A stretch of DNA of 64,000 nt from Apostichopus japonicus. Lineage: Eukaryota > Echinodermata > Holothuroidea > Aspidochirotida > Stichopodidae. The position numbers and the translations under genes are program-made. The notes beneath the pieces were generated by a model. The model made no database searches. It worked only from the letters and a program-made list of their open reading frames with translations, and had not been told where the DNA came from. Shown here one piece after another: positions 7,740-42,360 of the stretch (position 1 is the stretch's first letter; every line of letters starts with the position of its first letter). The stretch spans positions 30,105,989-30,169,988 of the forward strand of contig NC_092572.1 of the NCBI RefSeq assembly GCF_037975245.1, read 5' to 3'.

Positions 7740-7973
7740 TCAATGATCATCTTCACTGTCAAACAGCTCCTCTCCTTGGAAACCATAGAGTACTTGCATT
7801 ATGTGGCGTACACATCTCATTGAGGCCGCTTTACATTCAGTGCTGATAGGTGAGAAGTTGAGGAAGCCATGAGGAAGACCGTCAATGATATCAAGCTGTA
7901 CATGCTTATTGCGTCGCTTCAGCTTCTTGGCAAACATAACAGAGTCATCCAGTAAAGGGTCTAAGGAACAGGC
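7740..7973 (-). CDS. LIPE: LIPE exon 8 (C-terminal, catalytic Asp and His)
   Basis: Encodes residues 758-834 and the TGA stop (7740-7742). It begins [11 protein letters not shown] and contains GLPHGFLNF; by family alignment Asp762 and His792 are the acid and base of the triad. The acceptor is TTCTCAG with the exon in phase 0. The tail ends in an acidic DSEDDH. The ORF reading further left of 7973 is intronic low-complexity sequence. Confidence 0.93.
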   Translation of the reverse strand, partial: ACSLDPLLDDSVMFAKKLKRRNKHVQLDIIDGLPHGFLNFSPISTECKAASMRCVRHIMQVLYGFQGEELFDSEDDH

Positions 7974-10900
7974 CTGAGAAAAAGAAAATACCACATAAAG
8001 ATGAAGAGAAAACACCATATATACATCAAGAAAACACACCATACATACATAAAAAAACCACACCATACATACATCCAAAAAAAACCACCACACGAACATG
8101 GAGAAAACACCCCAAATATATAAAGAAAAACACCATATACATCAAGAAAAACACCACACATGCTTCAAGAAACATCTCAATACATCAAGTAACACCACAC
8201 ATACATCAAGAAAAATACCATACATAGGTCAAGAAAACACATTAGGGAAGCTTGCAAATCTAACCGCCATGTCCAGGCCAGCGGAAATCTCGCACCATTT
8301 GCTCATTTCGAATGTGCATATTAGTACCATGGCTGAATGCACACCAGCTGATAGCCAGTCTGAGTAATGAACACAGCGTCATGACAACACACAGCTGCTT
8401 ATTGTTCACAAACAATGAGCAACCTTGGCCAAGTGAGCGGATTAACTTTGGCGGTTTTGACAGTCAATAGAGCTGTAGTTTACGTTGCAAATCGCCCTAT
8501 TTTATACACTAACATCCGCCACTACCAAATGTCCGAGATTCAATACTTTATATAATTCTTGCAAATCTTCCAAGTTATCAAACCTCAAACATTTATGAAC
8601 CATTGTGACAAACGGCTTCTCGAAAGTGCGATAAAAAAGCACATAGGTAAAGCCTTTACCTTGGCCTGTACATTACTAGCCTTGATCAATGAGTGATACA
8701 TAACTATTATTGAAAAAGTGAATCAGCCATTGCATTAAAATCATGCGACCCAAGAACTTTGGAAAACCTATATTGACATACCAAAAGTCAAGCAGAACAA
8801 TAATTAAGCTACGCCCCACAAGTATGCTAACTACAAAGACCATCGACCGTAAAGTTGATCTCTGTATAACCGTAGTACGTCCCTCTAAACCGTGGAAAAT
8901 TTAGTGCGAGCTACTTGCGACACAATTTAAGCGAATAAAAAAATGGTTAGCCTTGATTTTCCCATTGACTTAGTGTGTTGTTAGGCTGCCATGTGGTTAG
9001 AAATATAAGACGTTTATTCGGTGAGAATTTGAGTGCGAGCTAACTGCCACAATTTCAGCAAATAACAGATGGTTAGGCTTGATTTTTCTATTAGCTTAGT
9101 GTTTTGTTAGGCTGCCACATGGTTAGAGATATAAGAGACAGTATTCGATGAGAATTTTGGTGCAAGCTTATTTGCGATACAAGTTCAGCGAACAAACACG
9201 GGTTAGACTAGACTGCTCCCATCATGTTTTTGTGTTGTTATGCGATCGCAAGAATTGTTTGGAGACAGTTTGCACTCAAGTGTGAATCATTATTTGCTTG
9301 TAGCTGTGTTCATTATAGCCGCGGAGAAATCCACCAGTCCGGACTCGGTGGTTAGATTTGCGAGGCTACCCTTAAGAAAACACCAAATACATTAAGAAAA
9401 CACCACAACTAATTAAAGAAAACACCACACATACATAAACCACCTGGCATTGGATGGTTACCGTAGACAAGCATTGGCAATGCTAACAAAATCCACACAC
9501 AAGCACCCATCTAGGTATTTCCATGGTAACCTGAGGAGGTTGGATGACCTGTCTCTTGGAGAGTTGCCAAACAGGCTTCCAGTTCACTCCAGATATTGTA
9601 GAGCTAACATTATAGGAGAGAAGGTAAGTAGTAAAATAGATTAACCAAGATGTTACTTACGATGATGTGCATAGGTGGAAGGCCTTCTAATAACTCATCA
9701 CTGGCAACATAGGGTGAGATGTATGGGTTACGCATGATGGGTATCTCTCTAAACCTCTTTACTGGTGATGTCACAAATGGTGATGGGGTTGCACCATCCT
9801 CCTCCAACAGATCTAGCTGGAGATTATCTCTTCTCAGAGCACTGGGTTCAACATGCTCACCGCTCTGATCTATCATAGTCGACGCTTGGTTATTATTTAA
9901 ACTGGACTCCTGTAACACACGTTCACTGTATCCACCATTCTTTAAGACAGGAATCTCTGGGGGCTTGGAAGGGTCAAACACAGCCACTGACTCTCCAGTT
10001 GGCAGCTGAAAAGGTGCTGTGTTTTGTGTGTTTTCTTTATCTTCATTTGATTCAGTTGTGGCAGTCTGCTCAGTGATGGCAGGCTTTGGAATTTCTTGAA
10101 TTCTCTCTTCGAGGCTTGTTCTCTCTACTGAATCACTTAAACTGTCAACTTTACTCTCTCCCTCAATACTACTGTCCCCCTGACTCTCAGTGGAAGAGTC
10201 ACCCTCCTGGTTGATTATGTGTGGGTCCTCTTTGATCTTGTCAAGGCTTGGTGTACTTGCTGCACTGGCAGTTCTTGGCTTCTTTCTTTCTACCTCCTCA
10301 TCTGATGAGGCTGTGCTTAACGATGAGAAGGATGGCGCTCTTCTGGGAGACATCTTCTCATTAGCTCTCTGAACCAATGAGATGACAGAATCTAGTGAGA
10401 GATCCTCCTCCTTGACACCAGAATAGGCTGCGATGCTGCGCAGATGGATCCCAAGTGGAAGCATTGGATCAAAGAGACACATGAGACGAGATGGTGAGAG
10501 AGAATGATGGACAAGGAACGGAGCGTATGTTGTGACAACACCATCAGGAATCTGAATTCCATATGAGGCAGCTCTCATGGCCACTGCTGTGGCCAGATTA
10601 CCACCAGAGCCATCGCCAGCTATGCAAATGTGTTCACCAGTAGAACCTTTGGAAGTAAAGAGGATACAATATAGAATACTGAATGGCTTGATATGGGGAT
10701 AACCTATTACTGGACATAATGAATGGCTTGATATGGGGATAACCTATTACTGGACATAATGAATGGCTTGATATGGGGATAACCTATTACTGGACATAAT
10801 GAATGGCTTGATATGGGGATAACCTATTACTGGACACAATGAATGGCTTGATATGGGGATAACCTATTACTGGACATAATGAATGGCTTGATAGGGGATA

Positions 10901-13900
10901 ACCTATTAATGGACATAATGAATGGCTTGATAGGGGATAACCTATTACTGGACATAATGAATGGCTTGATATGGGGATAACCTATTACTGGACATAATGA
11001 ATGGCTTGATAGGGGATAACCTATTAATGGACATAATGAATGGCTTGATATGGGATAACCTATTAATGGACATAATGAATGGCTTGATATGGGGATAACC
11101 TATTACTGGACATAATGAATGGCTTGATATGAGGATAACCTATTACTGGACATAATGAATGGCTTGATAGGGGATAACCTATTACTGGACATAATGAATG
11201 GCTTGATATGGGGATAACCTATTACTAGACATAATGAATGGCTTGATATGGGGATAACCTATTACTGGACATAATGAATGGCTTGATATGGGGATAACCT
11301 ATTACTGGACATAATGAGTGGCTTGATATGGGGATAACCTATTACTGGACATAATGAATGGCTTGATATGGGGATAACCTATTACTGGACATAATGAATG
11401 GCTTGATATGGGGATAACCTATTACTGGACATAATGAATGGCTTGATATGGGGATAACCTATTACTGGACATAATGAATGGCTTGATATGGGGATAACCT
11501 ATTAATGGACATAATGAATGGCTTGATAGGGGATAACCTATTACTGGACATAATGAATGGCTTGATATGGGGATAACCTATTACTAGACATAATGAATGG
11601 CTTGATATGGGGATAACCTATTACTGGACATAATGAATGGCTTGATATGGGGATAACCTATTACTGGACATAATGAATGGCTTGATATGGGGATAACCTA
11701 TTACTGGACAAATTGAATGGCTTGATATGGGGATAACCTATTAATGGACATAATGAATGGCTTGATATGGGGATAACCTATTACTGGACATAATGAATGG
11801 CTTGATAGGGGATAACCTATTACTGGACATAATGAATGGCTTGATATGGGGATAACCTATTACTGGACATAATGAATGGCTTGATAGGGGATAACCTAAT
11901 ACTGGACATAATGAATGGCTTGATAGGGGATAACCTATTACTGGACATAATGAATGGCTTGATATGGGGATAACCTATTACTGGACATAATGAATGGCTT
12001 GATAGGGGATAACCTATTACTGGACATAATGAATGGCTTGATATGGGGATAACCTATTACTGGACATAATGAATGGCTTGATATGGGGATAACCTATTAC
12101 TGGACATAATGAATGGCTTGATATAGGGATAACCTATTACTAGACATAATGAATGGCTTGATAGGGGATAACCTATTACTGGACATAATGAATGGCTTGA
12201 TATGGGGATAACCTATTACTAGACATAATGAATGGCTTGATATGGGGATAACCTATTACTAGACATAATGAATGGCTTGATATGGGGATAACCTATTACT
12301 AGACATAATGAATGGCTTGATATGGGGATAACCTATTACTGGACATAATGAATGGCTTGATATGGGGATAACCTATTACTGGACAAAATGAATGGCTTGA
12401 TATGGGGATAACCTATTAATGGACATAATGAATGGCTTGATATGGGGATAACCTATTACTAGACATAATGAATGGCTTGATAGGGGATAACCTATTACTG
12501 GACATAATGAATGGCTTGATATGGGGATAACCTATTACTGGACATAATGAATGGCTTGATATGGGGATAACCTATTACTGGACATAATGAATGGCTTGAT
12601 ATGGGGATAACCTATTACTGGACATAATGAATGGCTTGATATGGGGATAACCTATTACTGGACAAAATGAATGGCTTGATATGGGGATAACCTATTAATG
12701 GACATAATGAATGGCTTGATATGGGGATAACCTATTACTGTACATAATGAATGGATTGATAGGGGATAACCTATTACTGGACATAATGAATGGCTTGATA
12801 TGGGGATAACCTATTACTGGACATAATGAATGGCTTGATATGGGGATAACCTATTACTGGACATAATGAATGGCTTGATAGGGGATAACCTATTACTGGA
12901 CATAATGAATGGCTTGATATGGGGATAACCTATTACTGGACATAATGAATGGCTTGATAGGGGATAACCTATTACTGGACATAATGAATGGCTTGATATG
13001 GGGATAACCTATTACTGGACATAATGAATGGCTTGATATGGGGATAACCTATTACTGGACATTCATCATCAGCTTGAACCTGGTCAACTTTAGGTTGTAT
13101 TATTTCTGAAATGTTACAGCACAATAAGCTAATTATACACAGTAAATGCAAATCATTTTGCTCTACTGTAATTCACATTATGAACCACAATAACATTGTA
13201 ACAGGTACAATAAACAAAAAGGGTATAACTATAGTATGCTACTGACCTAACCAGATGTTACCTATAGTCCTGATGTGTTCATAACATTACCATACTTTGT
13301 TTCTGAGTTTTCAGTTCATAGTACTGATACTTCTGTGAGGCATGCTAATAGCCTGATAATATCTGTTCATACTTAAGGACCATACTATCCTGTATGCACA
13401 ACTGAATGTTAAGGACCATACTATCCTGTATGCACAACTGAAGGTTAAGGACCATACTATCCTGTATGCACAACTGAAGGTTAAGGACCATACTATCCTG
13501 TATGCACAACTGAAGGTTAAGGACCATACTATCCTGTATGCACAACTGAAGGTTAAGGACCATACTATCCTGTATGCACAACTGAAGGTTAAGGACCATA
13601 CTATCCTGTATGCACAACTGAAGGTTAAGGACCATACTATCCCCTATGCACAACTGAAGGTTAAGGACCATACTATCCTGTATGCACAACTGAAGGTTAA
13701 GGACCATACTATCCCCTATGCACAACTGAAGGTTAAGGACCATACTATTCTGTATGCACAACTGAAGGTTAAGGACCATACTATCCCCTATGCACAACTG
13801 AAGGTTAAGGACCATACTATCCTGTATGCACAACTGAAGGTTAAGGACCATACTATCCTGTATGCACAACTGAAGGTTAAGGACCATACTATCCCCTATG

Positions 13901-16900
13901 CACAACTGAAGGTTAAGGACCATACTATCCTGTATGCACAACTGAAGGTTAAGGACCATACTATTCTGTATGCACAACTGAAGGTTAAGGACCATACTAT
14001 CCTGTATGCACAACTGAAGGTTAAGGACCATACTATCCCCTATGCACAACTGAAGGTTAAGGACCATACTATCCTGTATGCACAACTGAAGGTTAAGGAC
14101 CATACTATCCTGTATGCACAACTGAAGGTTAAGGACCATACTATCCTGTATGCACAACTGAATGTTCGAATGATCAGGAAAGACTGGAGGAGGATGGAGC
14201 AATAAACTAAATTAGGCAGATTTAAAGCAATGCTCAGCAAAAATCTCCCAGAAGCAACAGTAAGGTAATTGGGGGTAAGGGGTGGGGGCACGGGGGGGGT
14301 GTATTGGAGTTTAGAGATGCAACATTCCAATACAAATCAAATTAAATCAGACACAAAATTTGATTTGATGCTGTTGTAATGGGGAGAGTAAGTCGTTTCT
14401 CTGAGGTGTGATGGGTTCATGTCTATCAGTTACCAACTGTAGGATGAATATTCTCCAGGAGAGTTCCTTGCACACTACAGAGCAATAATCAGAATAGTAG
14501 AAAAGATAAGAGAGTAGTGGGGGGGGGGATGCCGACTCAGACAGGCTTGGTGTGACAGGCACAGGATGCACAGGATTTGAAAGGTGGGGAGGGGGGGCAT
14601 CTAAATTTTCCTGACTGATTTAAGTAGGGGTATGAACCATTATGAAAAGACCAGAGGTATTCTATAAAGGAAAAGTTTTGGTCTTGTGTTCATTGAAGTT
14701 TCTGCCATATAAGGGGGTCTGAGAAACAATTGGGAAGTTAGACTACAAATGGGGGCATTCTGAGGCATATTTAGACAAAATTTTAAGTCTATATATTAGT
14801 AGCTCTAATCAAAATGCAAGGGTGTGCTACAAAATATTCTTAATATTTGTGTGAGGTTGAAAAAATGGGAGGTCTGCATCTGCAATGCCTGGAGGTGGTG
14901 AGAGGAGGGGAACCTGTATACAACTGATTGTCAATCCATCATTAACTTGTTAAACATATGTAGAAAATTGTAATCACCATGATACAACTCAGTTTTCGAA
15001 CATTTTCTTTTCTTAATATCTCAAATGAGAAAGAAATGGATCTAAATTTTCTCTCTCAGAAAGAAATACATTTCCAATTATTTATAAATTTTGCATTTGA
15101 TCTTACCAAGGTAGGGTGCATTCTTGACAGCCCAGGCATATGCAAAGAAACACTCCTCAAAGGCTCTAGGGAAAGGAAGCTCAGGAGACAAAGAATAGTC
15201 TATAGACACAATGGGAACACCGAGGTCCTTTGCCCAGGAACGCAGGTAGACCTGGAAAAATAACCAACATAACCAAAGAGGAAAATAGATGATGAGAGGA
15301 TTGAATCTAGTTTATTAAATTCAAACTTTGAAAATAACACTATCTTTATAGGAATTTTTCAATTACATTCTATTGGGTATATTAAAAAAAACTCCATAAT
15401 GTTTTCATCACCAGAATCCTAGTTAGGGGATTTTTCATGCTATGTTTCAGGGGAAGTGAATTTTTAAAACCTCCTGCCAACTTAATCTAATATATTTTGA
15501 ACAGTGGAGAACGACGAGCGCTGTGACGTCATCGCGGCACTTCATTTCAGGAGTTGCAGGGACACTATCATTTGCAAGCTAAACTGTCGCAAGGAAAGTT
15601 ACAATTTCTGTAAGTAGCCAATTTTCGATTGAAATTTCCCAGTGAAGTTGCAAGTTAGCAATCTTTTGAAGACTTGAACGTTCAATAATTCCCTAACACG
15701 GTTTTCTAGCACTAAATTTCTCACCAGATAAATGTCTTATATTTCTAAGCACATGGCAGCTTAATAACACACTAAGTCAATGGGAAAATCAAGCCTAACC
15801 ATTTGTTTATTTGCTAAAATTCTGTCACAGTAAGCTGGCACTAAAATTATCCACGGTTTAGAGGGATGTACTACTGTTATGCAGAGATCGACATTACGGT
15901 CGATGGTCTTTGTAGTTAGCAAACTTGTGGGACGTAGCTTAATTATTGTTTTGCTTGACTTTTGGTATGTCAATATTGGTTTTCTGAATTTCTTGGGTCG
16001 CATAATTTTAATGCAATGGCTGATTCACATTTTCAAAAATAGTTACGAACCACTCGTTGATCAAGGCTAGTAATGTACAGGCCAAGGTAAAGGCTTTACT
16101 TATGTGCTTTTTTATTGAACTTTCGAGTAGCTGATTGTAAGTATTGAATCTCGGACATTTGGTAGTGGCGGATGTTAGTGTATAAAATAAGGCAATTTGA
16201 AACATAAGCTACAGCTCTATTGACTGTCCATACAGCCAAAGTAAATCCGCTCACTTGGCCAAGTGTGCTCATTGTTTGTGAACGATATGCAGCCTTGTGT
16301 TGTCATGACGCTGTGCTCATTACTCAGTCTGGCTATCGGCTGGTGTGCATTCAGCCATGGGACCCAATATGCACATGCATAATGAGCAAGTGGTGCAAGA
16401 TTTCCACCAGCCAGGTCATGGCGGTTAGATTTGCGAGGCTTCCCTTAAATATATCATTTTCAAAGTGATACATGTTGTTGTAATAATCTCAAGTACTTCA
16501 AAACATGTTGATCCATCCAAAGCTAGAGAAGATCTAGAGTGACAACAAATAAAAAGATTTACTTATATTTTGGTTAAATGTAAAAAGTGAGGAGGAAGTT
16601 TACTTGATACCTCATGCGACTTGGAGGTGTGGCCGACAAACCCTCCACCATGAATATGTATGAGAAGCCCTTTGGACATTGGGCTGGGTGGTTTCTTGGG
16701 CGGTATATTACCCCTGCTGTCTTCTCGCTGTTCCTCGCCATCTTGTACCCAAGCCTGTGAAACAAACAAAGCTGTTTGTTACCATGCATCAAGTTTAGGA
16801 TAAGAAACACAGTCTACTTGAAGAAATCATGAGAGCACTCAGAGGGCAGACTACAAAATAATTCAGAAATAGAATACTCAAGCTAACAGGTTGATGTATA

Positions 16901-19900
16901 TAACAACTTGATATCACAAAGTATACAAATATGATATTACATGAAAATAGTGAAGGGATATTAATATACACTTTAACATATGAAATAGTGCTTGATTTGA
17001 AGTACATATCCAAAGGAATATTTCAGTGGCAGTCTACTGGGTGTGTGAAAATACTCCACAATTTTTTCATTGTCACAGTCCTAGTTCTGGGCTTTTTCAT
17101 TTTTGAACCTTGTGCCAACTTAATCTAATATGATTTGAACAGTGTAGAACGATGAGCGCTGTGATGTCATTGCGGCACTTCGTTTCGGGAGTTGCAGGGA
17201 CACTATCATTAGCAAGCTACACTGTAGTGAGGAAAGTTAAATTTCTGAAACGAAATAGCGATTAAGATGGAAATTTCTCTTTGAAGTTGCTAGTTTGCAA
17301 TCTAAAAGGTTTGAAGGTTCCATAAGTCCCTAACTAGGTTTTCTTCATAATATGTTGTTCAGATATTTATTATTTGAGCAATTTTTTTAATCACAGCAGT
17401 TAGCAAAGTCTGTACACATTCATCTGTATTGTATCAAGGCCAAGCTTAGAGTGAGATGTGATCGAGTCTGACCAATGTGCCGAGCTGACGTCACCAATCA
17501 ACGTAAGTCAGTGTAGACTCAAACTTACCAGCAGGACGGGCCAACATTTCATGCCCTCTATCACAGAAACTAAAATTCAGCACAGGGCAAGGCTTACAAA
17601 GCGATTATAAAGACAAAAAATGATATGACCGGAAGGATTGGATCCCATTTTTCACTAAAAAAGCTCCTATAAATAAGTATGGAATCTTTAGGTATCCTTA
17701 CTATAATATACACAAAATATTTCAACTGTAAAGCAACATTGTCAATGTTGACATTCTCAGCTGCTCACAATTGGTTTATAGTTCACTTCCTTTGGCAATG
17801 TAAACATCCTCACATAATATTTCATTCATACTTTTCCAAGTAAATGAACGTTTAATAAAACAAATAAAAAAACCGCCAACTACATCCTACAAAAGTTTGT
17901 ATAATAGAATAAATACCTGTCACTTGAAAATGGTAACCACTTTATAAATATTCTTCTTTAAGGTATGCTTGGTAGCTCTTGAAAGCTTAAGTAATGCTTA
18001 CCTTTGTGCATTTTCTTTTCAAGATATTTTTTTTTTACAGTCCCACAATAGTAAAAGCATAGTTAGTTTAGTGCAAATTTATGCATTACCCTCCATAACT
18101 CATTGCCTTTATGTAACAAGGTAGTCAAGCAATAATTGGTACCAACCTGGCCCTCTCTCTCCACAAAGCTAAGAAGGCGTATCTGAACTGGCCCTGGGCC
18201 GACATGAGCACAAGGAGGGGTGATAGTAGCTGTTTCCTCAGAATTGTCCACACGTTCCATCTCAAAGTTGTGAGGTGTGATTTGGATAAGTTTATTGATG
18301 GCTACTGATCCTGCCATAAAATTACACATTTCCTGTAGAAAACGAGACAAGTTTGAGATAATCACGGTCAGAAAACACACATAAGGAGACATACTGGGAA
18401 ACCGAGTTGAGAATGTTGACCTTGTCCGGGATGACTACCCTCATCATGATCCTAACTAGTTCTCTGTCTCTGCGTAGCTCTTGGTAAAGAGTAGAAACAA
18501 TTATATTTACCATCAAACCATCAAATTTCACTTGATATGATCGTCAAGAAGATTTAAGATTTAACTCCCTACCAGAGATAAAAATCAGGTGGAAAAACCT
18601 ATTTTTATAGTAAATGCATACAATTAAATCCAAAATGTTTCCAAAACCGCATTCCGACTTGAGCCGAAGTCATGAAAAATAGGAAAACCATACTTTGTAT
18701 CTATTCACAGTATGAAATTCATGTAACATGCAAACAATGTCACTGTAAATTGGCAAATCACTACGACATTTCACAACCTACAGTCAATTCATGCAGATGG
18801 TTAATTGTGGAACCAGAACAAGAGTGACAGTCAGTATTTCTTTTACATACCCTTTTGTCCCTCTACATTCTAGCAGCTAACTAGAGAGAGCACATATAGC
18901 TCCATACTAGCAGCTAACTACAGAGAACAAATATAGCTCCATACTAGCAGCTAACTAAAGAGCACATATAGCTCCATACTACCAGCTAACTACAGAGAGC
19001 ATATAGCTCCATACTAGCAGCTAACTACAGAGAACACATATATAGCTCCATAATAGCAGCTAACTATAGAGAACACATATAGCTCCATACTAACTGCTAA
19101 CTACAGAGAACAAATATAGCTCCATACTAGCAGCTAACTACAAGAGAACACATATAGCTCCATACTAACTTCTAACTACAGAGAGCACACATAGCTCCAT
19201 ACTAGCAGTTAACTACAGAGAGCATATAGCTCCATACTAGCAGCTAACCACAGTGAGCACATATAGCTCCATACTACCAGCTAACTACAGAGAGCATATA
19301 GCTCCATACTAGCAGCTAACTACAGAGAACACATATAGCTCCATACTAGCAGCTAACTACAGAGAGCATATAGCTCCATACTAGCAACTAACTACAGAGA
19401 ACAAATATAGCTCGATTCTAGCAGCTAACTAGAGAGAACACATATAGCTCCATACTAACTTCTAACTACAGAGAGCACACATAGCTTCATACTAGCAGCT
19501 AACTACAGAGAACAAATACAGCTCCATACTAGCAGCTAACCACAGAGAGCACATTAGCTCCATACTAGCAGCTAACTACAGAGAACAAATATAGCTCCAT
19601 ACTAGCAGCTAACCACTAAGAGCACATTAGCTCCATACTAGCAGCTAACTACAGAGAACACATATAGCTCCATACTAGCAGCTAACTACAGAGAGCATAT
19701 AGCTCCATACTAGCAGCTAACTACAGAGAACACATATAGCTCCATACTAGCAGCTAACTACAGAGAGCATATAGCTCCATACTAGCAACTAACTACAGAG
19801 AGCGAATTTAGCTCCATACTAACAGTTAACTACAGAGAGCACATATAGCTCCATACTAGCAGCTAACCACAGAGAGCACATATAGCTCCATACTAGCAGT

Positions 19901-22900
19901 TAACTACAGAGAGCAAATATAGCTCCATACTAGCAGCTAACTACATAGAGCATATATAGCTCCATACTAGCAGCTAACCACAGAGAACACATATAGCTCC
20001 ATACTACCAGCTAACTACAGAGAGCATATAGCTCCATACTAGCAGCTAACTACAGAGAGCACATATAGCTCCATACTAGCAGTTAACTACAGAGAACAAA
20101 TATAGCTCCATACTAGCAGCTAACTACAGAGAGCACATATAGCTCCATACTAGCAGTTAACTACAGAGAGCATATAGCTCCATACTAGCAGCTAACCACA
20201 GAGAGCATATAGCTCCATACTAGCAGCTAACTACAGAGATCATATATAGCTCCATACTAGCAGCTAACTACAGAGAGCACATATAGCTCCATACTAGCAG
20301 CTAACTACAGAGAGCACATATAGCTCCATACTGGCAGCTAACTACAGAGAGCACATATAGCTCCATACTAGCAGCTAACTACAGAGAGCACATATGTGAA
20401 AGGAAGACAAGTGATATTAGCTAATCCAGTTGTTTTTTATTTGAGATTTCTACTTACTGCAAGATTATCTCCCTCTGATATGGCCCAGAAAGCTTTACAG
20501 ATGCGGACATCAGAAGAACTGAACACATCTAAGAGCTGCTTCCCTCTTGTATCCGGGTTTGTAGAATACCGTCCTCTTCAAGAAAATTAACAAAAAGAAT
20601 AAATGTACACTTTAACAATGATAAAGTTGTCAATTTGATGGATTATTTCTAACTGCCAGGTTGTTGAATTTTTTATATTTTTAAAGGACAAAAAAAAGGA
20701 ATTTTAATAAATAATTTATTTTATGACATGATGCCTTCATGTGTCTGTCTTTTTTATACTTAGAAACTTATGTTGACCCTGGAATAGGTACTTTCTGATC
20801 TAATGCCAAACTTGTACTTAGTTGTTCATGCATGCAAACCTTAATTCATTTCCAAGAAGCTTTTGATAGCATTGATAAAAAGATCCAACTGAAGTTGCAC
20901 CCCTGCATAAACTTGACTGCCACTAGATGACTTAATAGGTATTATCCATTGTTACATCATTGGTTTAGAAGCTATTTGATGTTGGAAGCAACATGTTGTG
21001 ACTCTGTGGGTTTGAGAATAACACCTCTTTTGTACTCCAATTCCTGTCTTTTTGTCTACTTTTTGTTTTCTCAGGCTGTTGGGGTGGGTGGGAGGGGAAC
21101 TAGAGGGGGATACTCTGGAGAGAGGAGGATACTCTATCACAGTGTTACACTGTTCCTGCAATCTTTTCTATTTAAAGCATTAGAAGCCAAGAGGAACATA
21201 GATCTAGCTCTGTTGTGACTGTAAGTTAGCACTAATCACTGAAATGTACTAAACCTTTAATCACAATTAAGCTACAGTATACAGAACACCAAGTTTCATA
21301 CTTTAAGTATACTGGAGTACTGAAGCCTGAATTGAGAGTAATTTCAGTGAAGCTTCTTGTAATCAACTGTACTTATACAGTAGGCCCTCACAGCAGGTAT
21401 TATCACTTGTTGTTTTGCTGCCACATGTGATTAATTTTCTTGTTGCAACATTTTATATGAAAATATGATCTGAAATGTGACTTTAAAACTGTTAATATTG
21501 ACTAATCTGCTGATTATGATGAAAAGGTCTTGCTACTTGGCCATCCTGTAAAGTTTCTGGTCCATAACAACCTTAAAACTAAGTTGTAAATATCACTTCT
21601 TTTATCCTTTTTGCAGGTTTTAACATGTCAACTAGAGATGTAAGAAAGCAATAACTATTTCTGTTCTAATTTTCATCATTTTTTTACCAGAAGATTAAAA
21701 GATTAAAATGTCTGGCTTAAATCAATGATTTTTTAAAGAAAACAGTACTGATTTAAATCAATTAGTTTCTTACCCATTGAACAGTGATGATGCTACTCTG
21801 GAAAATGCCCCCTCCTGTTTCTGGACACCTTCTCCAAATGCTGCAATTGCCAAGGACATAGAATTCAGTGGCTGGGATAGACTCTCACAAAACTACAAAC
21901 ACAAAATAGAGAGAGAAGTGTTAACTGAAGGCATCTGTATTAGTACCATAAAATATACTCAAATTTGGATGGGGGCTGGAGGGTGGGGGAGAGTTGTAAC
22001 CTATAGCATGCTATTAGATGCAACAGGGAGGGGAAACATTATATTGTGGCATCACAAATATGTTTCTGCTTCCCTACATTATTTTATGCTAGCTTGAACA
22101 CTACATTTGAATTAAGCAGACCAAGTGTGGGAAATCTTTAAGGGAACCACTTTCTTATAACACTCTGTTTGAAGGTGACAACTGGCTTTTGTTTTTAATG
22201 ATACAGAAAGACGAGAGGATATTTAACTATAAAAGACTATAATCCATATCAATGATATTTGTCCAAAACTGTTCCATATTCATCAATATTATTCCACCTA
22301 CAGTTTGCTCCATATTGATCAACGTTATCCGTCCCTAAGTTTGCTCCATACTGTATGTCAATGCTATTTTCTCTCTAGTTTGCTCCATATGTTACTTTTC
22401 CAAGTTATATATATCCATCACTGATAGAGAAATAATTAGCTTTATGGATCTACATGGTTATATGTATCACATGACAGATACAGTAACCTAGGGTAATTGA
22501 CTTATGTGGGCACTTTGCAGTACGAAAGCTGCAAAACAGTGTTATACTTATCCAATATTACTGCATAGCTTATATATTTTCATATCACAGAAAGGTATTT
22601 ATATAACCTACATTATGACTTACCAGGTAGACAACTATACAGACTTTATTTATAAACTTTCTGTCTGGGAATTCTACTCTTATCCATCTTATCTCAAAAC
22701 ATGAGAGGTTTCAGGTAAATATCTGCATTCCTCTAAGGGCAGTTAGAGCTGACACTACCATCAACACTTTCAAACCCCTCCGGTAGAAATTAAAATTCTT
22801 TCAAGTTCTGGTAAGTGTCTTTCATTCCTCTTAAGATTATTTTTTTTCATTTAGAGCAGGAGCTACTTCTGTTTCAAGTGCTAAAAATACCTGCCAGTAA

Positions 22901-25900
22901 ATCTATCCTTCATCAGACAGATAAACAGATTTTTGCATATCAAAGCAAACTCAGCACTTCTATTTTGTTAATTTGAAGAATGGTTGTATAGTTTGCTTAC
23001 TTTCAGCATAGAACAACTGTAGGACGAAGCAGTACAGAACATCCTGCTATGTTTGTACGTATGTACGAGAAAGTGTTTTTGCAATCATTCCAATACCTAG
23101 AATGTTCAACTTTATGCAATTCAAACAGTTGAACCTCCACCCCCATGGGAATCAGTTTGTACGGAAGATTTGAAGACTGAATTTTGTCTCTTACAAGCTA
23201 CTACAGTATCTGTACAAAACACAGTGATGTACATCTTTGGACATGTATGTATACAATTTTCACCATTTTGCACCCAAGTTTGCCATGCTATACTGGAGAC
23301 CCTCCCTCCCCCCCCCCACCCCTCCCCCATTTAACTGGCTTATTTCCCTGTCAGTTTACAATTCTGAAGCATATGTACAGTATGCCTAAACATTTAACAG
23401 TATTGTTATAAGTAAAGAATTCTAAGAGGCTAAAGAGCAAACCTTATTTGTAAATCGTTATCATGTTTAGTAATTTCCACCAATCCCATCCGACAAAACT
23501 TATTAGGTTATACCACAGCTACAGTAAGTACTACTAATACAAATAAAAGGAATTTTAATGAAACATTCAGTTTATCTTTTGAATGAAACCAGAACTGAAA
23601 CCACTAACATACCAAAATCAAATTCCTCACACCCATATTGTGTAGCTTTGCAGTAACACGTGTAATGTTTGCACACACCACGTTTCCCATGCATACTACA
23701 GTTAGTTCAAAGTCCACAATGCATGATTAATTCCAATGAGCACAGCCTACAGTATAATGTACACAATGAGTGACTGTACAGTCCCTCTATATACTCTATA
23801 GTAATCAAACAAATATAATACAAAACGAATATCAGCACTGCAGACTTTAAGTATAGAGTGCAAGTGATATAGGTCCATGCTGTATTCCATGTGTTTATAT
23901 ATTTACACTGCTGTATTATTAAGGTACCTCTATTGAATTTACAATACTTCTACATAGGAATGTTACAGTATACACAGAAACATGACAAAAGTGCTGGTCA
24001 ACCAACTCCTGGAATGGCAGTAAGGTAGTGTGTACAGTAAAGGCAGTGGCAAAGTTATGCAGAAATAACAACCATTGCTACTCTGTGTTATTAGTATTAG
24101 TATTGATGACCACCTGAAACAGGCCTGTGCAATGAAAATAAGTTGCATTTAATGAACATTATAAAACTTACTGGTTTATATATTTACGAGTGACCCACTT
24201 ACCTGTCTCCCCACAACATAAGCACCGCATTCTACCGTGTTTAGTATGCCCTGGTAATCTTTTAACACTGTACACCCTCACTGACCCTAGTGACCTCCTT
24301 CATTTTGAGACCACTTCTTCCCAAAGTGGCCCCTGACGCGACCTCGGGGCATACTAGACACGGTAGAATGCGGTGCTTAGGTTGTGGGGAGACAGGTAAG
24401 TGGGGAACGAAGTAAATATCACAGTTTTAATGCAAAAGGTGAAAGAATAATTTGCCTGGACCTTCTGTAGAGGTGAACAGGAGTCTGTTTCCACTTAATA
24501 AAGTAACTTAAAGATAAGAGAGCAATCTAAGTTACCGAGGAAATCAAAGTTTGACAAACCTGTGATTTTGTTGTAAAGAACAGAAAATTGCTTCAACATA
24601 AACTTGGCTTTGAATTTTAAAGCTTTCTTTCTTAAACCAAAGTATGGAATCATTGTTCATCAAAGAAGTAGGTTAGGAAGACTCTTCATAACTGCGTACT
24701 TTGCTGCTGTTAAACATATATTTCAGTCCCCCCCGCCCCATATTTTAATAGGACTGGTATAGATTACCTACACACATAAATATCGACTATAATATCAAAC
24801 TGTTGCAAGAAATTCTAAAACATGGGAAACTGAGACCTCCATTGGCAGAATTCTTCAATTCTCATAACTGTCTCAGATTTGGATATTCTCCAAACCTTTT
24901 GATTCTGAAATATCCTACTGTGAATAAATTACAATTTGGTTTCAGACAGTTTACTAAATTGTTAAACCAATGGAGTACACAATCTGTACTAGCCCATTTA
25001 AACTTGCAAAGATGCAATTGTAAAGGATAGCAATCCATCACCCACCTCCAAAATGGGTGGGCGGGACAAAGTGTCATTTTAAAATGCAAGCAAAACGTGA
25101 TTGTCTATTGTTTGTTCTGCTCTGTTAAGAGATGACCCTAGCATGGGTGATGAACTTGGACTGTAATTTGTTAAGTACTGTATAGTTGCATATATACACT
25201 ATGCACAGTTGCTTGTTGACTGATTGCTGAGACATTTCTTAATGATGTAATGCACACAAATATAGATGATACCACCAGGTACAGTATAACACACGTGTGC
25301 ACCTTAATTACACAGTTGGTAAAATCAGGCACAGTGTAGTCACAGTAGAACTTTTGACCTAACCATTGATGTGAACTCAAGCATGACATGTACTGTAAAT
25401 GAACTGTAACACACAATAAGGTTGAGTAGTTTAATCTTGTACTCTGTATAAGTGTGGTACATAATATGGCCACATGTGACAAGAAAACAAACTATTGAGT
25501 TGAGGAGAATTGAATGGAATCAATCAATTAACAGGATATCACTCATAGGAGAAACAAACCTAACCATATTTACAGAAGTGAAGCTTCACTGATCACCTTT
25601 TAAGTTTATTTTGTTAAATTTTGTTTGCTTTTCCATTAATAATACTAAATTCTATTACAATATATATTTTTTTTAATCAAATATCTTCATATCTACCTGC
25701 ACATTACATGCTCTTAGTGTTAAAATTGGCCAATGTAATGATGAGAATTATTATTATTATTATGATACATTTAATATTGCACTAGCAACCAAAAGTTACC
25801 TAATGCGCTCTACAAAGCATAGGATTCAAGACAAATTTACAAAAAATTGGAGTACAAACAAAATCTAGAACCTAGAAAAAAAAAACATGTTTTAAATTTA

Positions 25901-28900
25901 GATTTGAACTGCTTAATTGTTGCATCTTTAATTGAACCTACAGTAGGTATATAAATATTTTTGTATTGACCTACAGTAAAATTTGCATATTGTACCTACA
26001 GTAGGTATTTAATGATTTTCATATTGGACCTACAGTAAAATTTGCATATTGTACCTACAGTACAGTAGGAATTTAATGATTTTCATATTGGACCTACAGT
26101 TGGTATATCAAGATTTGCATATTGGACCTACAGTAAGTATATACAGATTTGCAACTGGACCTACAGTAGGTCTATAAAGATTTGCATATTGGACCTACAG
26201 TAGATACAGTATATAAAGATTTCCGTAGTGGACCTACAGTAGGTATATTAAAATTTGCATATTGGACCTACAGTAGGTATTTAATGACTTTCATATTGGA
26301 CCTACAGTTGGTATATAAAGATTTGCATATTGGTCCTACAGTAGGTATAATGATTTGCAATTGGCCCTACAGTAGATCTATAAAGATTTGCATATTGGAC
26401 CTACAGTAGACCGTATATAAACATTATTACTAGCACTAGACCTAAGCACTCTCCTGCCAATGTCTAAATGGAGAAGTTCTGACAGGTATTCTGGGGCTTG
26501 TCCATTCAAGCACTTCCGAACAATGGTAAGAATCTTTAACTTAACACGTAGTGTAAAGGGAAGCCAATGTCATTTCTTCAAACAGGTTGTGGAACCATCA
26601 GGTCTATCCCAACCCAGGACTAACTTAACAGCCACGTTTTGCACTTGTTGCAATTTTTCAGACTTGGCCGTAAAAGAGGCCATTACAGCAGTCAAGGTGT
26701 GATATAATCAAACCTTGTACAACTTGTTTAACAAGCATCAATGGTTAGCTATTACCTGATACTGGCTATATGATGATAACTTGCCATATAGCAGTTCTAG
26801 CATGTTACATGTAGCATTTGTTCTGTATGTGTGATTTCATGGAAAGATTATCATCAAGGTACATACCCTTTTACATATGACATGGACTTTTGATATCTCA
26901 CAGTTACTGACAGACAATTTTTGAGTTATGCATTTAAATCACTTTTTAGTTGATCTGAATTATATAAACTATTTCTTTGAGTCATTCACTTTAAGTTGGT
27001 TGTGTTCCATCCAGGATTAGACCTGACTTAACGATTCTTCAAGTACATGTGCAGTAGATGACTCAGACTCACTTTAGTGCATGATCATCAGCATACCCAG
27101 AGTTAACAATGTCAGGTATACATATTTTCATGGTGGATGCATATAGACAGAACACAGGGTTGGGCCGGCTACACTTCCCTGTGGAACTGAGAAATTTAGG
27201 TTTTTTTGATGATGATTATTCATTTTCAATGAACTCCCTTGGTGCAAGGTAACTGCAAAACCACTGAAGACATTCACCTGATATTCCAATATTTGCAGCT
27301 AAGACAATCAACAGCACCGAGTGGTCAACAGTATCGAAAGCCGCACTGAAATCTATGGATGCAAGAGATGTTATAACTTTTTATTGTCCATGTTCCACAG
27401 TATATCATTAGCTAATTTAAGGAGTGTTGTTGTATTCTCAGTGTTCCACGAACTGTTCAAGAGCAACTTTTGCTAAAAATTTTGACAAGAAATAAAAGTT
27501 ACTCAATGGTCGATAGTTAGACATGACAAGTTCTAGGTCAACATTTTTTAAGTACAGGACTCACCACGACAACTTTCCATTTTTGGATGAACACACTTTT
27601 GCATAAGGAAGTATTTATGACCCTTGTAATGATCGGCACAATTTTCTTAAGAACCTTTTTCAAATTTCACTGGCACTATGTCTATTTCACATGTCTTTGT
27701 TGGCATTTATGGAATGGCAATCCTAATAAGGTCTTCACTCACTACGGAAAACTACTGTATGCAAGAGTGAAGTTCACTTGGTCAGAAGCTGTGTACAGAC
27801 TTTTATCTTGGAGTTCCTCTCTCATTTGGAGGAAATTTTCCAAGAATTGATCGGCCGGATCTTTGTCACTTGTATGCTTTGGCAGTGGACACCCTACTCT
27901 TTCCCTCCTTCTCACAAAAGCCCTTCATCATTTAATGTTATCAAATAAACAAGATTTCTTTCAGGTCTGTAATTAGTCTCATTGGAATTAGCTGGTCCAA
28001 ACATTAACTGTGTTTTCATCCACAGCTTCCCACCGGCAGTCAAGATCATATAAATCAGTAAGGTCACACTATTTTCAATGTCCAGTTTTCAAAAGCATCT
28101 TGTGTTAATTGTTTTAATAACTACATCATCTCTTTCAAAATCTAGGTCTGCTACCATGAATAGCATGAAGCAATCATTGGATATGTACTGTATGAACCTG
28201 CAAAACAGTTTATGATTTTTAACATCACAATTTTCTGATGCATAAATGTGATGAAGGGTGTGACCTCTATCATAAGTCTGAAGTGAACATGTTGGTCAAA
28301 GCCTTTCATTGACTTGTTAATGTCATTTGAAATATAATTGGATTATCCAAACATCAACATGGATGTTGAAATGCTAATAATTTGTCAACATAATTACACA
28401 CTCACTTAATTATTATGTGGTGATAAAATATAGAATGGTGACATTAGAATCAACAAGTACATGCTTGTTACACACTAAACACATACAAGTCAACATAACG
28501 ACCTGCAAATAAAGTGTCATTTGTTACAAAATGTTGGTCTCTTTTCTTAAATATGACTGGAAACTGGACACGTCCATATTATTTTGTTCCGGGAACTGAA
28601 AGTTACTTTCATTGTTATTTTCTTTCCCAATGCTCCAAGTATATCTAGACCTGCCAACTGCCTATCATGTTGAAGACAATATCCCACTCTACTTCCAATA
28701 TTACATACTGATCTGCCGGCACAGTGATGTGTAAAAGCTCCCTTTTTTTCTATGTTACTTTTTTATTGCTGTCTTAGTTTCCTTTGGATTTACCCAATAC
28801 TCAATTTTTCCTCTAAACCCGAATTTTCTTGGGGGATTGAGAAAATTTGAATCTCCCTATATGTTAAATATTTATGAAAGCTAGAAATAGAAAAAGTCAG

Positions 28901-37900: not shown

Positions 37901-39090
37901 GTCAAATTAATTATCCAGTAAAATAGAAAAGAAGGAAAAATAACATTTAGTCTGTAAGAACAAAGGTAGTCTTTTCTTTTCAAAGTACTCTACTGCAGCT
38001 AGAAGTGTATGTTTTAGAGTAGGTATTTTTTATCTACTGTTTTGTTCAGCTGTGAACATTGTTACAAAGCCTAAACTTGAAACTAGGCCTTTAGTTTGTA
38101 TTACTCTAGAGATCATTTACATTCCCAATACTAGCTTTTTCAAGCTTAGAAGGGCAAATTCATTCTGTGTGAAATATTTTATATAATTAAGGGCCACTCC
38201 ATAAAATATTTTGGCATACTCGGTGTAGCCTACTGTATATATGCCACCAGAAAGTTCAGTTTAAGTAAGAGTCTAGACCAATGATTTTACTGATGGCAAG
38301 AAAAAAACTTCAACATGAAAGTAAACAATAACTATGTTGATTTCCACCTGACCACACAGAGTATTTCTGTATACTAGAATTGGGTCCCGGGCAATTTCTC
38401 TGACAATGTTCACTTTGTTCTGTGAAACTGCAGGGGTCTACTGTGTAGGCCTAATTAATGTTAGACACTGGCCTAATGTTACTGTGGCCCAGGCCTTCAA
38501 CTGCATGATATACCAACCTGAAACCCAAGACATCGGCCGTAAAAGCACTCTCTGTCCAAAGCTTGCATTTCCAGTATCACCTCATGTGGAAACTGATCGT
38601 CTGTGGGGAACAAGCTCCCATCCGGTGAGTAGGCAAGCAACTTCTGGGCGTACCCCAGTATCACCCTCAGCTGGCCTAACGCACTTGCATATGCCTCAAT
38701 TTCGCGAATGTAGTGACCTGCTCTAAACAAATAACCATTTCTGTGTTCCTGAACATATTGGCAAACAGCAGTTAATTTAACAACACATGATCCCACAATG
38801 TTTACAAGACTTCTGTAACCATTTCCAAGAGACTTGCGATCAAAATCAAAAAGTGAAGCGATTCGTTCTAAACCTTCGGCTGCAGGATTCAGTGCGTCAG
38901 TTTCCTGTTCTATCAAGCAAAACACGTTTAGAAATCTCTCACTCCAATAACTTCTAGTTTGTCTGTAATAAGCGATATTGTTAAATACCGACTGTCGAAG
39001 ATCTTGGATGGGAGCCGAGACAGAATATTCTATGAAAGAGGCATTTGTTTTGACGGAGCCGGTACTATTTTGTCTCACGTACCCCGCCAT
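7740..39090 (-). CDS. LIPE: Hormone-sensitive lipase, complete 8-exon gene (gene span)
   Basis: Hormone-sensitive lipase is a cytosolic, lipid-droplet-recruited neutral lipase/cholesteryl esterase. I joined exons 39090-38518, 21892-21774, 20575-20458, 18332-18147, 16754-16611, 15251-15107, 10646-9661 and 7973-7740; all introns are GT..AG and phases match, giving 2505 nt and 834 residues, in the range of known HSLs. The N-terminal HSL domain covers about residues 1-330, with family signatures NGYRSLV and [10 protein letters not shown]. The alpha/beta-hydrolase part starts near 350, with oxyanion HGGGF at 367-371, [15 protein letters not shown] near 395-410, and DPLLDD and LPHGF at the end. A Ser/Thr-rich regulatory insert spans about 500-735. 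Asp762 and His792 sit 30 residues apart as in mammalian HSL, but the nucleophile motif is GDGSGG (439-444) rather than GDSAGG. The reading frame is otherwise intact, so this is either an active gene with an unusual site, a pseudoenzyme, or a sequence error. Confidence 0.93.
7981..8241. repeat. A-rich short-period repeat in LIPE intron 7, left part
   Basis: Irregular repeats of CACCATACATACAT and CAAGAAAACACC. The same motif continues at 9372-9440, on the other side of an inserted transposon, so one original tract was split. Confidence 0.75.
8245..9371 (+). mobile_element. PIF/Harbinger-like MITE in LIPE intron 7
   Basis: Terminal inverted repeats start GGGAAGCTTGCAAATCTAAC and end with the complement (GTTAGATTTGCGAGGCTACCC), about 25 bp with few mismatches. 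TTA flanks both sides (8242-8244 and 9372-9374), the target duplication expected for PIF/Harbinger elements. The insertion splits an AAGAAAACACC repeat tract. Its right part holds about three subrepeats of ~115 bp marked by TTGTTAGGCTGCCA and GGTGAGAATTT. No transposase ORF. A related inverted copy is at 15706-16444. Confidence 0.8.
9372..9440. repeat. A-rich short-period repeat, right part
   Basis: Continuation of the AAGAAAACACC tract seen at 7981-8241, separated from it by the MITE at 8245-9371. Confidence 0.7.
9661..10646 (-). CDS. LIPE: LIPE exon 7 (nucleophile motif and regulatory insert)
   Basis: 986 nt encoding residues 429-757. The acceptor CCAAAG joins GT to the G left by exon 6, giving [18 protein letters not shown]. 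The HSL family has GDSAGGNL here. The SPSRL and FDPMLPLG blocks match the family. Then follows a long Ser/Thr/Glu-rich segment with basic patches ([21 protein letters not shown]) at the place where mammalian HSL carries its PKA-phosphorylated regulatory loop; phosphorylation here is inference. It ends [23 protein letters not shown] before donor GTAAGT. Confidence 0.93.
10681..13063. repeat. 40-bp minisatellite, about 60 copies, LIPE intron 6
   Basis: Head-to-tail 40-bp units beginning GAATGGCTTGATATGGGGAT and ending ACCTATTACTGGACATAAT. A 39-bp variant lacking one T (GATAGGGGAT) recurs interspersed, along with single-base variants (AATGGACA, ACTAGACA, GGACAAAA). The array starts only about 35 bp from the exon 7 acceptor. 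No coding role. Confidence 0.97.
13373..14165. repeat. 36-bp minisatellite, 22 copies, LIPE intron 6
   Basis: Units of 36 bp read TTAAGGACCATACTATCCTG then TATGCACAACTGAAGG, with a recurrent CCTGTATG/CCCCTATG variant. Because 36 is a multiple of three, it stays open in one minus-strand frame as a 12-residue repeat; that is a by-product of the period and not a protein gene. It lies in the same intron as the 40-bp array, about 310 bp away. Confidence 0.96.
14166..15106. other. LIPE: LIPE intron 6, right part
   Basis: Unique intronic sequence with several G-rich runs (about 14281-14300, 14519-14528, 14585-14598). No exon or element recognised. Confidence 0.4.
15107..15251 (-). CDS. LIPE: LIPE exon 6
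   Basis: 145 nt encoding residues 381-428 plus one base of 429. The peptide contains [31 protein letters not shown] and AYAWAVKN, the most conserved block of the HSL hydrolase domain after HGGG. Acceptor TTTTTCCAG, donor GTAAGATC. Confidence 0.93.
15340..15705. mobile_element. Dispersed element A, copy 1 (MITE-like), LIPE intron 5
   Basis: Shares long blocks with 17030-17345: the ACTCCAYAATGTTTTCAT start, CAACTTAATCTAATAT, GAACGAYGAGCGCTGTGAYG and GAGTTGCAGGGACACTATCA. The two copies have facing CCTAGTTAGGG and CCCTAACNNGG motifs near their ends, suggesting terminal inverted repeats. Superfamily not resolved; boundaries approximate. Confidence 0.6.
15706..16444 (-). mobile_element. PIF/Harbinger-like MITE, second copy, truncated
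   Basis: Reverse-complement relative of 8245-9371. It ends GGTTAGATTTGCGAGGCTTCCC followed by TTA (16445-16447), and the interior matches in inverted order, e.g. ATTGACTGTCC, GCTCACTTGGCCAAG, CATCGACCGT/ACGGTCGATG and the GGCAGC subrepeat. The left terminal repeat was not found; it abuts element A at 15705. Confidence 0.75.
16611..16754 (-). CDS. LIPE: LIPE exon 5 (oxyanion-hole HGGG)
   Basis: 144 nt, 48 residues (333-380), phase 0 at both ends. It begins [13 protein letters not shown] and ends [23 protein letters not shown] (367-371) is the oxyanion-hole motif of the HSL family. Acceptor TTTCACAG, donor GTATCAAG. Confidence 0.93.
17030..17345. mobile_element. Dispersed element A, copy 2, LIPE intron 4
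   Basis: Direct-orientation relative of 15340-15705 with the same ordered blocks and CCCTAACTAGG near its right end. No coding capacity. Confidence 0.6.
18147..18332 (-). CDS. LIPE: LIPE exon 4
   Basis: 186 nt, 62 residues (271-332), phase 0 at both ends. It encodes the linker into the hydrolase domain, with [20 protein letters not shown] matching the HAHTGPGPV-type block of HSLs, ending FVEREGQ before donor GTTGGTAC. Confidence 0.92.
18871..20395. repeat. 34-37-bp minisatellite, over 40 copies, LIPE intron 3
   Basis: Units start AGCTCCATACTAGCAGCTAA and continue CTACAGAGAGCACATAT; versions without the CAC triplet or with AACAAATAT alternate. More divergent than the other two LIPE arrays. 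It ends about 60 bp from the exon 3 donor at 20457. Confidence 0.95.
20458..20575 (-). CDS. LIPE: LIPE exon 3
   Basis: 118 nt completing codon 231 and encoding residues to 270: [20 protein letters not shown] followed by [19 protein letters not shown]. The KAFW block matches the HSL N-terminal domain. Donor GTAAGTAG. The acceptor is chosen as GAAG before AGGACGG because only this keeps phase with exon 2. Confidence 0.88.
20576..21773. other. LIPE: LIPE intron 2
   Basis: Unique intronic sequence; nothing recognised apart from a G-rich run near 21082-21097. Confidence 0.5.
21774..21892 (-). CDS. LIPE: LIPE exon 2
   Basis: 119 nt beginning in phase 0 with [20 protein letters not shown], then [20 protein letters not shown]. 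This is the continuation of the N-terminal domain after GRCLGFQ; the ASSLF block is conserved. Acceptor TTTGTAG, donor GTAAGAAA. Confidence 0.9.
24194..24404. mobile_element. Foldback MITE with 58-bp inverted arms, unit 1
   Basis: Arms 24194-24251 and 24347-24404 are reverse complements with two mismatches; they start CCCACTTACCTGTCTCCCCA and end TGGGGAGACAGGTAAGTGGG. The loop is about 95 bp. A transcript of intron 1 could fold into a long hairpin. Superfamily unknown; no clear target duplication. Confidence 0.85.
25740..27930 (-). mobile_element. Decayed L2-like LINE, 3' half, unit 1
   Basis: Read on the minus strand, pieces of a reverse transcriptase appear in order: [13 protein letters not shown] and [12 protein letters not shown] (about 27490-27610), [15 protein letters not shown] (about 27310-27360), the [15 protein letters not shown] block (about 27130-27195), YADDHAL (about 27080-27100), then the C-terminal [18 protein letters not shown] and [14 protein letters not shown] blocks (about 26470-26690). 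The 3' end is marked by an ATAATAATAATAAT tail near 25750. Frameshifts and stops make it inactive. Confidence 0.85.
25938..26415. repeat. Minisatellite in the 3' region of the LINE, unit 1
   Basis: Imperfect ~34-bp repeats built on GGACCTACAGTAGGTATATA and AGATTTGCATATT. It lies between the reverse-transcriptase remnant and the ATT tail. Confidence 0.9.
29041..29835. mobile_element. hAT MITE truncated at the duplication junction
   Basis: Starts TAGTGCTGAAAGTCGACTC like the complete copy at 36328-37259 but is cut at 29835, where copy 2 of the 7.3-kb unit begins. It lacks the last ~137 bp and the right terminal repeat. Confidence 0.75.
31480..31690. mobile_element. Foldback MITE, unit 2
   Basis: Copy of 24194-24404 carried by the segmental duplication, with the same two arm mismatches. 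Confidence 0.85.
33026..35216 (-). mobile_element. Decayed L2-like LINE, 3' half, unit 2
   Basis: Duplicate of 25740-27930 carrying the same disruptions, so it arose by segmental duplication and not by retrotransposition. Confidence 0.85.
33224..33701. repeat. Minisatellite in the LINE, unit 2
   Basis: Duplicate of 25938-26415, with the same irregular unit order. Confidence 0.9.
36328..37259. mobile_element. hAT MITE, complete copy
   Basis: The left end TAGTGCTGAAAGTC and right end GACTATCAGCAGTA form imperfect terminal inverted repeats, with subterminal TCGATTAATCGC / GCGATTAATTGA motifs. Flanks TTACACAA (36320-36327) and ATACACAA (37260-37267) match in 7 of 8 positions, consistent with a hAT 8-bp target duplication. 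No transposase. Confidence 0.75.
37268..38517. other. LIPE: LIPE intron 1, 5' part
   Basis: Unique intronic sequence between the duplicated block and exon 1; no element or exon recognised. Confidence 0.45.
38518..39090 (-). CDS. LIPE: LIPE exon 1 (start codon, N-terminal HSL domain)
   Basis: 573 nt, 191 residues, starting [19 protein letters not shown]. Family signatures: [44 protein letters not shown] and [10 protein letters not shown], the last ending exactly at donor GTTGGTAT. The ATG at 39090 is the only Met of the ORF upstream of the conserved block. Alternative 5' exons, as in mammalian isoforms, cannot be excluded. Confidence 0.92.
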
Positions 39091-41130: not shown

Positions 41131-42199
41131 TCGTACATCCCAAAAAGCAGTACAGTGCGACAACTGTGATCAATGGATCCACACTAAGTGCTGTAACATT
41201 GATGACTCAAAATACAGCGAGCTAATGCACTCTAGCTGTAACTGGGTGTGTGATGTTTGCGACTTCATGAACTTCTCTGACTCTTTCTTCTCAAATAACA
41301 ATTCCATCAACTGCACTAATTCATATGATCTACTTTAATATTGTACTTCTGACATTGACTTGGGGTCCAAGTTCCAACCACCATGCAAAGATCAAATTGA
41401 AAACCAACTCAAGACAGGTTAAGAGGAAGGCACTCAAATTTCTTGTCATAAACTTCCAGAGTGTTTGTAACAATTCAGAAATCTTTCCAGACAACTATGC
41501 AGTCATTCATGAAAATAGAAGTCCAAATGGTTATGGTGGTGTATTACAGGCAATAAAAAGAGACCTGATTTTCACTGAGCTCACAAAATTGGATTCTAAC
41601 TGTGAGATAATCTGGACCAAATTACAATTCCTTAAGAAAAAGAGCATGTATATAGGAACCTTTTAGAGGCCTAGTTACAATGATCTTTCTAGCCTTCAAG
41701 AGTTGACAAGATCCCTCCAAAAAATGGGCAGAAATTGTGGCAAAAACAATGTTGTACGATAGCGATTTCAACCAACCCAACATTGACTGGAGCCAAAACA
41801 TTATTTCCTTCTTGAAGTAGCCGACTCATTCAACCTCACACAAATTGTACAGTCACCCACCAGAGACAATAACATCCTTGATCTTGTTTTCACTAACAAT
41901 GCTTCAGCTTTCACCTCAAATAAAGTCATTTCATGCATAAACGACCATGAAATTGTTGAGATGTCTCTAAATATCTACCCTCCCCGCAAAAAGTTACCAA
42001 ATGGTATTCTATTTGAAGAAAAAAGCTACTGACCACATAGGAGAGGATCTGACCAAATTGAAACTGCAAACCTTTGTTAATTTTAATATTTTATTTAAAT
42101 TATTTATTTTTAGTCTGTACATGCTATTTTTAAAATGGCATCCCATATCTTTTTGTAGCATGGTTAACAATATACAATCTCAATAAATAAAAAAATCAA

Positions 42200-42360
42200 T
42201 GTTGTAGAGCACCATAATAGTATTGATAGCATACTAACACATCATATATATTTAAGTGATATGGCCGGTGTGTATCGGTTTATAGCATAACGAGTTGTGG
42301 TTGTGGAATGAGAAAGTGCCCCTCTGATGTTGTGCCCCCCCCCCACTTTTTGGAAGCTTC
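42200..42360 (+). mobile_element. Fragment related to the 1513-2634 hAT element
   Basis: GAAAGTGCCCCTCTGATGTT followed by GTGC and a poly-C run, then ACTTTTTGGAAGCTTCC, resembles the right terminal part of the element at 1513-2634. It lies between the endonuclease and reverse-transcriptase pieces of the LINE, where sequence is missing. Left limit uncertain. Confidence 0.5.

Follow-up and report, generated by a model that had tools for sequence, protein, structure and literature searches.

The window analysed here, a stretch of 64,000 nucleotides from the sea cucumber Apostichopus japonicus (contig NC_092572.1, positions 30,105,989 to 30,169,988 of the forward strand), carries on its minus strand LIPE, the gene for hormone-sensitive lipase (HSL). 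Rebuilt from the window, LIPE consists of eight exons that together give 2505 nt and a protein of 834 aa with one terminal stop (Table 1). Introns are bounded by GT and AG throughout, with gttggt instead of gtaagt as the donor that follows exon 1 and exon 4. Exon 2 was located with a 40-residue stretch of human HSL, and the whole-protein alignment to the human structure 8zvq then confirmed it. A frame of 834 aa that lacks internal stops, together with GT-AG borders at all introns, argues that this is not a decayed copy. In the spliced protein, Pfam recovers both domains expected of the LIPE lineage: HSL_N (PF06350), with 296 bits at residues 29-332, and Abhydrolase_3, with 141.2 bits in two stretches split by a long insertion. 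The best solved relative is human HSL (PDB 8zvq chain A, 525.8 bits by phmmer), to which the protein aligns in two blocks, 35-513 and 729-819, and the C-terminal Asp/His block is present. To judge from its domains and motifs, the gene is LIPE by descent. As candidate protein kinase A sites, an RxxS-type pattern matches eight times in the protein, two of them in the insertion (R531xxS and R553xxS), the pattern being a loose one counted with no shuffled control.

Table 1. Coding exons of LIPE and position of its nucleophile motif in the window
Feature	Position	Strand	Content and basis
LIPE coding exon 1	38518..39090	minus	Start ATG at 39090; HSL_N domain; GT donor gttggt, HSL_N match, 8zvq alignment
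LIPE coding exon 2	21774..21892	minus	Located by human HSL stretch; confirmed by spliced protein against 8zvq
LIPE coding exon 3	20458..20575	minus	AG/GT borders, HSL_N match
LIPE coding exon 4	18147..18332	minus	AG/GT borders, HSL_N match
LIPE coding exon 5	16611..16754	minus	Oxyanion-hole motif HGGGF, residues 367-371
LIPE coding exon 6	15107..15251	minus	Abhydrolase_3 match, AG/GT borders
LIPE coding exon 7	9661..10646	minus	Nucleophile elbow and long regulatory insertion
LIPE coding exon 8	7740..7973	minus	Catalytic Asp762, His792, stop codon
GDGSGG replacing GDSAGG, residues 439-444	10600..10617	minus	Spliced frame, 8zvq alignment

The introns of LIPE are filled with minisatellites, at 10676-13062, 13373-14166, 18866-20395 and 7983-8241, which consist, in that order, of 60 copies of a 40-bp unit, 22 copies of a 36-bp unit, 42 copies of a 37-bp unit and one array of 21-24-bp units. 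The 40-bp array begins 30 bp upstream of the exon that encodes the nucleophile, and the last array lies 10 bp upstream of the exon with the catalytic His. Intron 1 also contains a segment of 4,671 bp present twice with zero mismatches (23309-27979 and 30595-35265, the copies 7,286 bp apart), which represents either a very recent duplication or a duplication in the assembly. Upstream of LIPE, the minus strand at 53000-62300 matches the C2-set, V-set and I-set/Ig_3 domains in exons that belong to a gene of the immunoglobulin superfamily, and on the plus strand, at 41271-42562, there are open frames that by eye resemble pieces of reverse-transcriptase retroelements. Elsewhere in the assembly, the COX1 frame stays open under several mitochondrial codes, but table 9 alone, which reads AAA as Asn, puts Asn where other animals have it, a mark of echinoderms; COX1, ND1 and ND2 share one strand of a 16,099-base contig, an arrangement found in sea urchins and sea cucumbers but not in sea stars. 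Five further COX1-like pieces lie at G000:C29:14745-31219, on a contig numbered among the nuclear ones; they may be mitochondrial insertions, or the contig may be a mitochondrial one that was left unplaced.

At the nucleophile elbow, residues 422-427 of 8zvq (GDSAGG) lie opposite residues 439-444 of the sea cucumber protein (GDGSGG) without a gap. Gly441, encoded by GGC (10611-10609, minus strand), stands opposite human Ser424, and Ser442, encoded by TCT (10608-10606), opposite the Ala that follows. The other two catalytic positions are intact, with Asp762 opposite human D693 and His792 opposite H723; residues 424, 693 and 723 of the human enzyme are those that we take to be the catalytic triad of HSL. 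The HGGG oxyanion sequence of catalytic HSL is likewise found, in the HGGGF that starts at residue 367, and Asp440, just before Gly441, is retained. The first-pass annotation had described an 834-residue product with Gly441 and Ser442, Asp762, His792, HGGGF and no stops, a model that the rebuild and the 8zvq alignment reproduced exactly, and its central claim, that GDGSGG takes the place of GDSAGG with Gly at the site of the catalytic Ser, is borne out by the gapless alignment. Since the nucleophile serine of the GxSxG motif, a hallmark of catalytic HSL and of family IV, is missing from GDGSGG, the gene is not classed as a catalytic HSL. The motif is real in the assembly, and it is uncommon.

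Identity to human HSL is 19/27 over residues 429-455, 65/95 over 361-455 and 85/145 over 361-505; over the stretches 729-819 and 35-330 it is 42/91 and 112/296, respectively. The comparison of 361-455 with 35-330 marks the catalytic core as the best conserved part of the protein, and in this alignment both altered residues sit inside the most conserved block of that core. This conservation may mostly predate the change, and it therefore gives no date for it.

No second HSL_N locus was found in the 671.6-Mb assembly, where all three matches belong to this gene (4/4 candidates scored), and no second nucleophile exon either, the single match being the exon itself (8/8 candidates scored), a missing match not being proof of absence in either search. 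Within the window, G.S.G has one match on the minus strand between 7000 and 21000, at 10594, in another frame with nearby stops, and a narrower elbow pattern matches the minus strand of the window just once, at 62055, where a stop interrupts the frame. These searches indicate that the window holds no alternative GDSAGG exon. A second intact LIPE, with the present gene as its silent copy, had been raised as a possibility beforehand; it was looked for across the assembly with HSL_N, the nucleophile exon and Abhydrolase_3, was found by none of these searches, and was rejected. What the assembly contains is a single-copy open frame that is intact except for its missing nucleophile, the pattern expected of an alpha/beta-hydrolase pseudoenzyme.

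Other members of the fold in the same genome keep the serine. Abhydrolase_3 gives 36 rows in the assembly: two are LIPE, 24 come from 12 AADAC-like frames, each matched in two halves, and ten are others. The 12 AADAC-like frames that were read are the best-scoring of the 36 rows, ten further non-LIPE rows standing outside the count, and the Ser is present in every one of the 12, within GDSAGG in nine and within GDSMGG, GDSGGG and GDSVGG in one each. These frames (L018-L029), all with a GDS elbow, lie on contigs C10, C5 and C13 of G000, nine of them on C10, and make up an expanded carboxylesterase family. Patatin-type loci are present as well, which means that other lipase families exist in the assembly. 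The best patatin-family match, at G000:C22:484256-485299, has 11 internal stop codons, which suggests either that the copy has decayed or that the match bridges an intron.

How uncommon the altered elbow is was gauged with an exact coding pattern for AGDGSGGNL, in which Ser was allowed as TCN and Leu as CTN only. Run over 84,980 prokaryote species, each represented by a single genome, it returned ten matches, none of the ten in an HSL-like frame, the frames being judged by eye over at most 110 residues before the motif and 220 after it. Within one phylum, 10 of 299 genomes together contained 11 matches to the corresponding AGDSAGGNL pattern, all matches being counted whether or not they lie in an HSL gene; as the two scans were run on different collections, the frequencies of GDGSGG and GDSAGG are only roughly comparable. 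Viral contigs scanned with the nucleophile exon showed pattern matches at four stretches, none of which is a relative. In the literature searched, we found neither the string GDGSGG nor a pseudoenzyme LIPE, nor an account of the catalytic triad of an echinoderm HSL.

The sea cucumber protein shares with human LIPE (8zvq) the HSL_N domain, an alpha/beta-hydrolase core split by a long insertion, HGGGF and the catalytic Asp and His, but differs in carrying GDGSGG where the human protein has GDSAGG with Ser424. The gibberellin receptor GID1 is an HSL-family fold that has turned into a non-enzyme, its activity having been lost through the His; its elbow, GDSSGG, has Ser at both positions and, unlike that of sea cucumber LIPE, keeps the first. 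In the neuroligins, the nucleophile Ser is replaced by Gly. Bacterial family IV esterases, with their GDSAG and GTSAG subfamilies, share the Abhydrolase_3 core, and their motif is known to vary, as in GCSAG and GSSGG, around a retained Ser (PMC6986724); active family members retain the Ser, whereas in sea cucumber LIPE the Ser itself is substituted. The neuroligins and other inactive carboxyl/cholinesterase-like proteins, as portrayed in PMC3017765 and PMC5385555, offer a further likeness as alpha/beta-hydrolases kept for binding after catalysis was lost. The neuroligins differ in belonging to another family and in serving extracellular adhesion, and a new partner of sea cucumber LIPE would be conjectural.

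The reading that we favour, with a probability of roughly 0.52, is that this single-copy echinoderm LIPE has exchanged its catalytic Ser for Gly, with a Ser next to it, and would still fold but act as a pseudo-lipase. To the gene structure, the motif and the lack of a second copy, this reading adds a presumed loss of activity and a presumed non-catalytic role that has been retained. The protein would be expected to fold normally, since glycine, which tolerates a strained backbone, suits the nucleophile elbow, and it keeps the regulatory insertion along with the oxyanion loop and the remaining pair of triad residues. Deprived of the nucleophile hydroxyl, the acyl-enzyme could most likely not form. 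In the family member LpEst1, the elbow residue has a phi of 56 and a psi of -128, with a distance of 2.8 A between its O-gamma and the His N-epsilon2 (PMC3963902); glycine, having no side chain, cannot make such a contact. That same paper describes, for a family member of solved structure, an Asp before the nucleophile that steadies the oxyanion loop and whose replacement by Ala leaves a folded, inactive protein. Precedents for the retention of such proteins come from inactive carboxyl/cholinesterases, among them the neuroligins and a silkworm clade without the catalytic serine, which have lost the nucleophile Ser and been kept as non-enzymes (PMC3017765). The pseudo-lipase would bind lipid, lipid-droplet or partner proteins, and hydrolysis would fall to ATGL-type and AADAC/NCEH1-type enzymes.

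The substitution may have arisen in two steps. AGC GCT becomes GGC TCT by two single-base changes, and a change from Ala to Ser that came first, an order that we infer, would give GDSSGG on the way. Such a pair of changes had already been suggested by the first-pass annotation; the arithmetic holds, and the starting codons are assumed, not derived from an orthologue. Against a pseudo-lipase speaks the fact that Asp762, His792, HGGGF and Asp440 are kept and that the surroundings of the active site are better conserved than any other part of the protein, as would be seen in an enzyme under selection, and that a serine directly adjoins the lost one. With Asp, His and the oxyanion loop retained, either the loss would be recent, or the site would still bind something, or Ser442 would have taken over.

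The last of these possibilities makes Ser442 a displaced nucleophile: Gly441 would relax the elbow so that Ser442 reaches His792, and the protein would be an active lipase. We regard this as possible though unlikely. It accommodates the retention of Asp762, His792 and HGGGF as well as the Ser newly present at the adjacent site, a position at which Ser already occurs in the GDSSGG motifs of plant GID1 alignments. Placed on an idealised backbone, for which the true rotamer and His position are not known, the O-gamma of Ser442 comes within 3.5 A of the His N-epsilon2 in 8.3% of 10,377 sampled placements; in the same model, and with the same caveat, a nucleophile rotamer near -65 degrees on an unchanged elbow makes no contact in 5,691 placements, contacts being confined to the other two rotamers. 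The exact motif is, moreover, absent from HSL-like frames among the prokaryotes scanned (0/10 matches). That the catalytic Ser of an animal HSL has relocated by one residue via a GDSSGG intermediate, enabled by the elbow Gly, seems decidedly unlikely. A recent loss could instead be confined to the sequenced animal, which would carry a loss-of-function allele or a variant that segregates in the species, while others have GDSAGG or GDSSGG. The assembly represents one individual, and the intact Asp, His and HGGGF are what a recent loss would leave; a study of A. japonicus also regards hsl as a normal gene of lipolysis, with mRNA that rises on PLIN2 knockdown (PMC13256177). The motif differs, however, by at least two nucleotides, in adjacent codons, from any coding of GDSAGG, which is more than one simple mutation, and we consider an allele of this kind unlikely.

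The finding depends on few bases, yet an assembly or base-call error is highly improbable. The 834-residue frame is otherwise clean, and two in-frame substitutions in neighbouring codons without an indel are an atypical HiFi error. Data for the chromosome-level A. japonicus assembly amounted to about 64x in HiFi reads and 84x in Illumina reads (PMC10344927), and if the present assembly is the one reported there, it was made with Hifiasm from about 64x PacBio HiFi, so that a base error becomes unlikely. It is scarcely credible that a functional product is regained after transcription, by RNA editing or an alternative nucleophile exon, and nothing in favour of this came to light. A-to-I editing would need an A, which GGC lacks, and a C-to-U change would give GGU, still Gly; editing to Ser at 441 was rejected because GGC has no common route to Ser. 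As for an alternative exon, the interval between the flanking exons contains no other elbow motif whose frame could be used, and the assembly yielded no second copy of the exon. From the three readings that had been left side by side at the outset, base-call error thus emerges as unlikely and the non-catalytic homologue is tentatively favoured over the displaced serine.

HSL ranks among the standard enzymes that mobilise fat. A LIPE that is present in one copy and lacks the canonical nucleophile would mean either that A. japonicus mobilises lipid without HSL catalysis and retains the protein for some other role, or that the position of the catalytic serine has shifted. Expression work in this species uses the mRNA of an hsl that may be the present gene as a marker of lipolysis (PMC13256177). 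If the protein is inactive, the reading of hsl as a lipolysis gene in A. japonicus would need revision.
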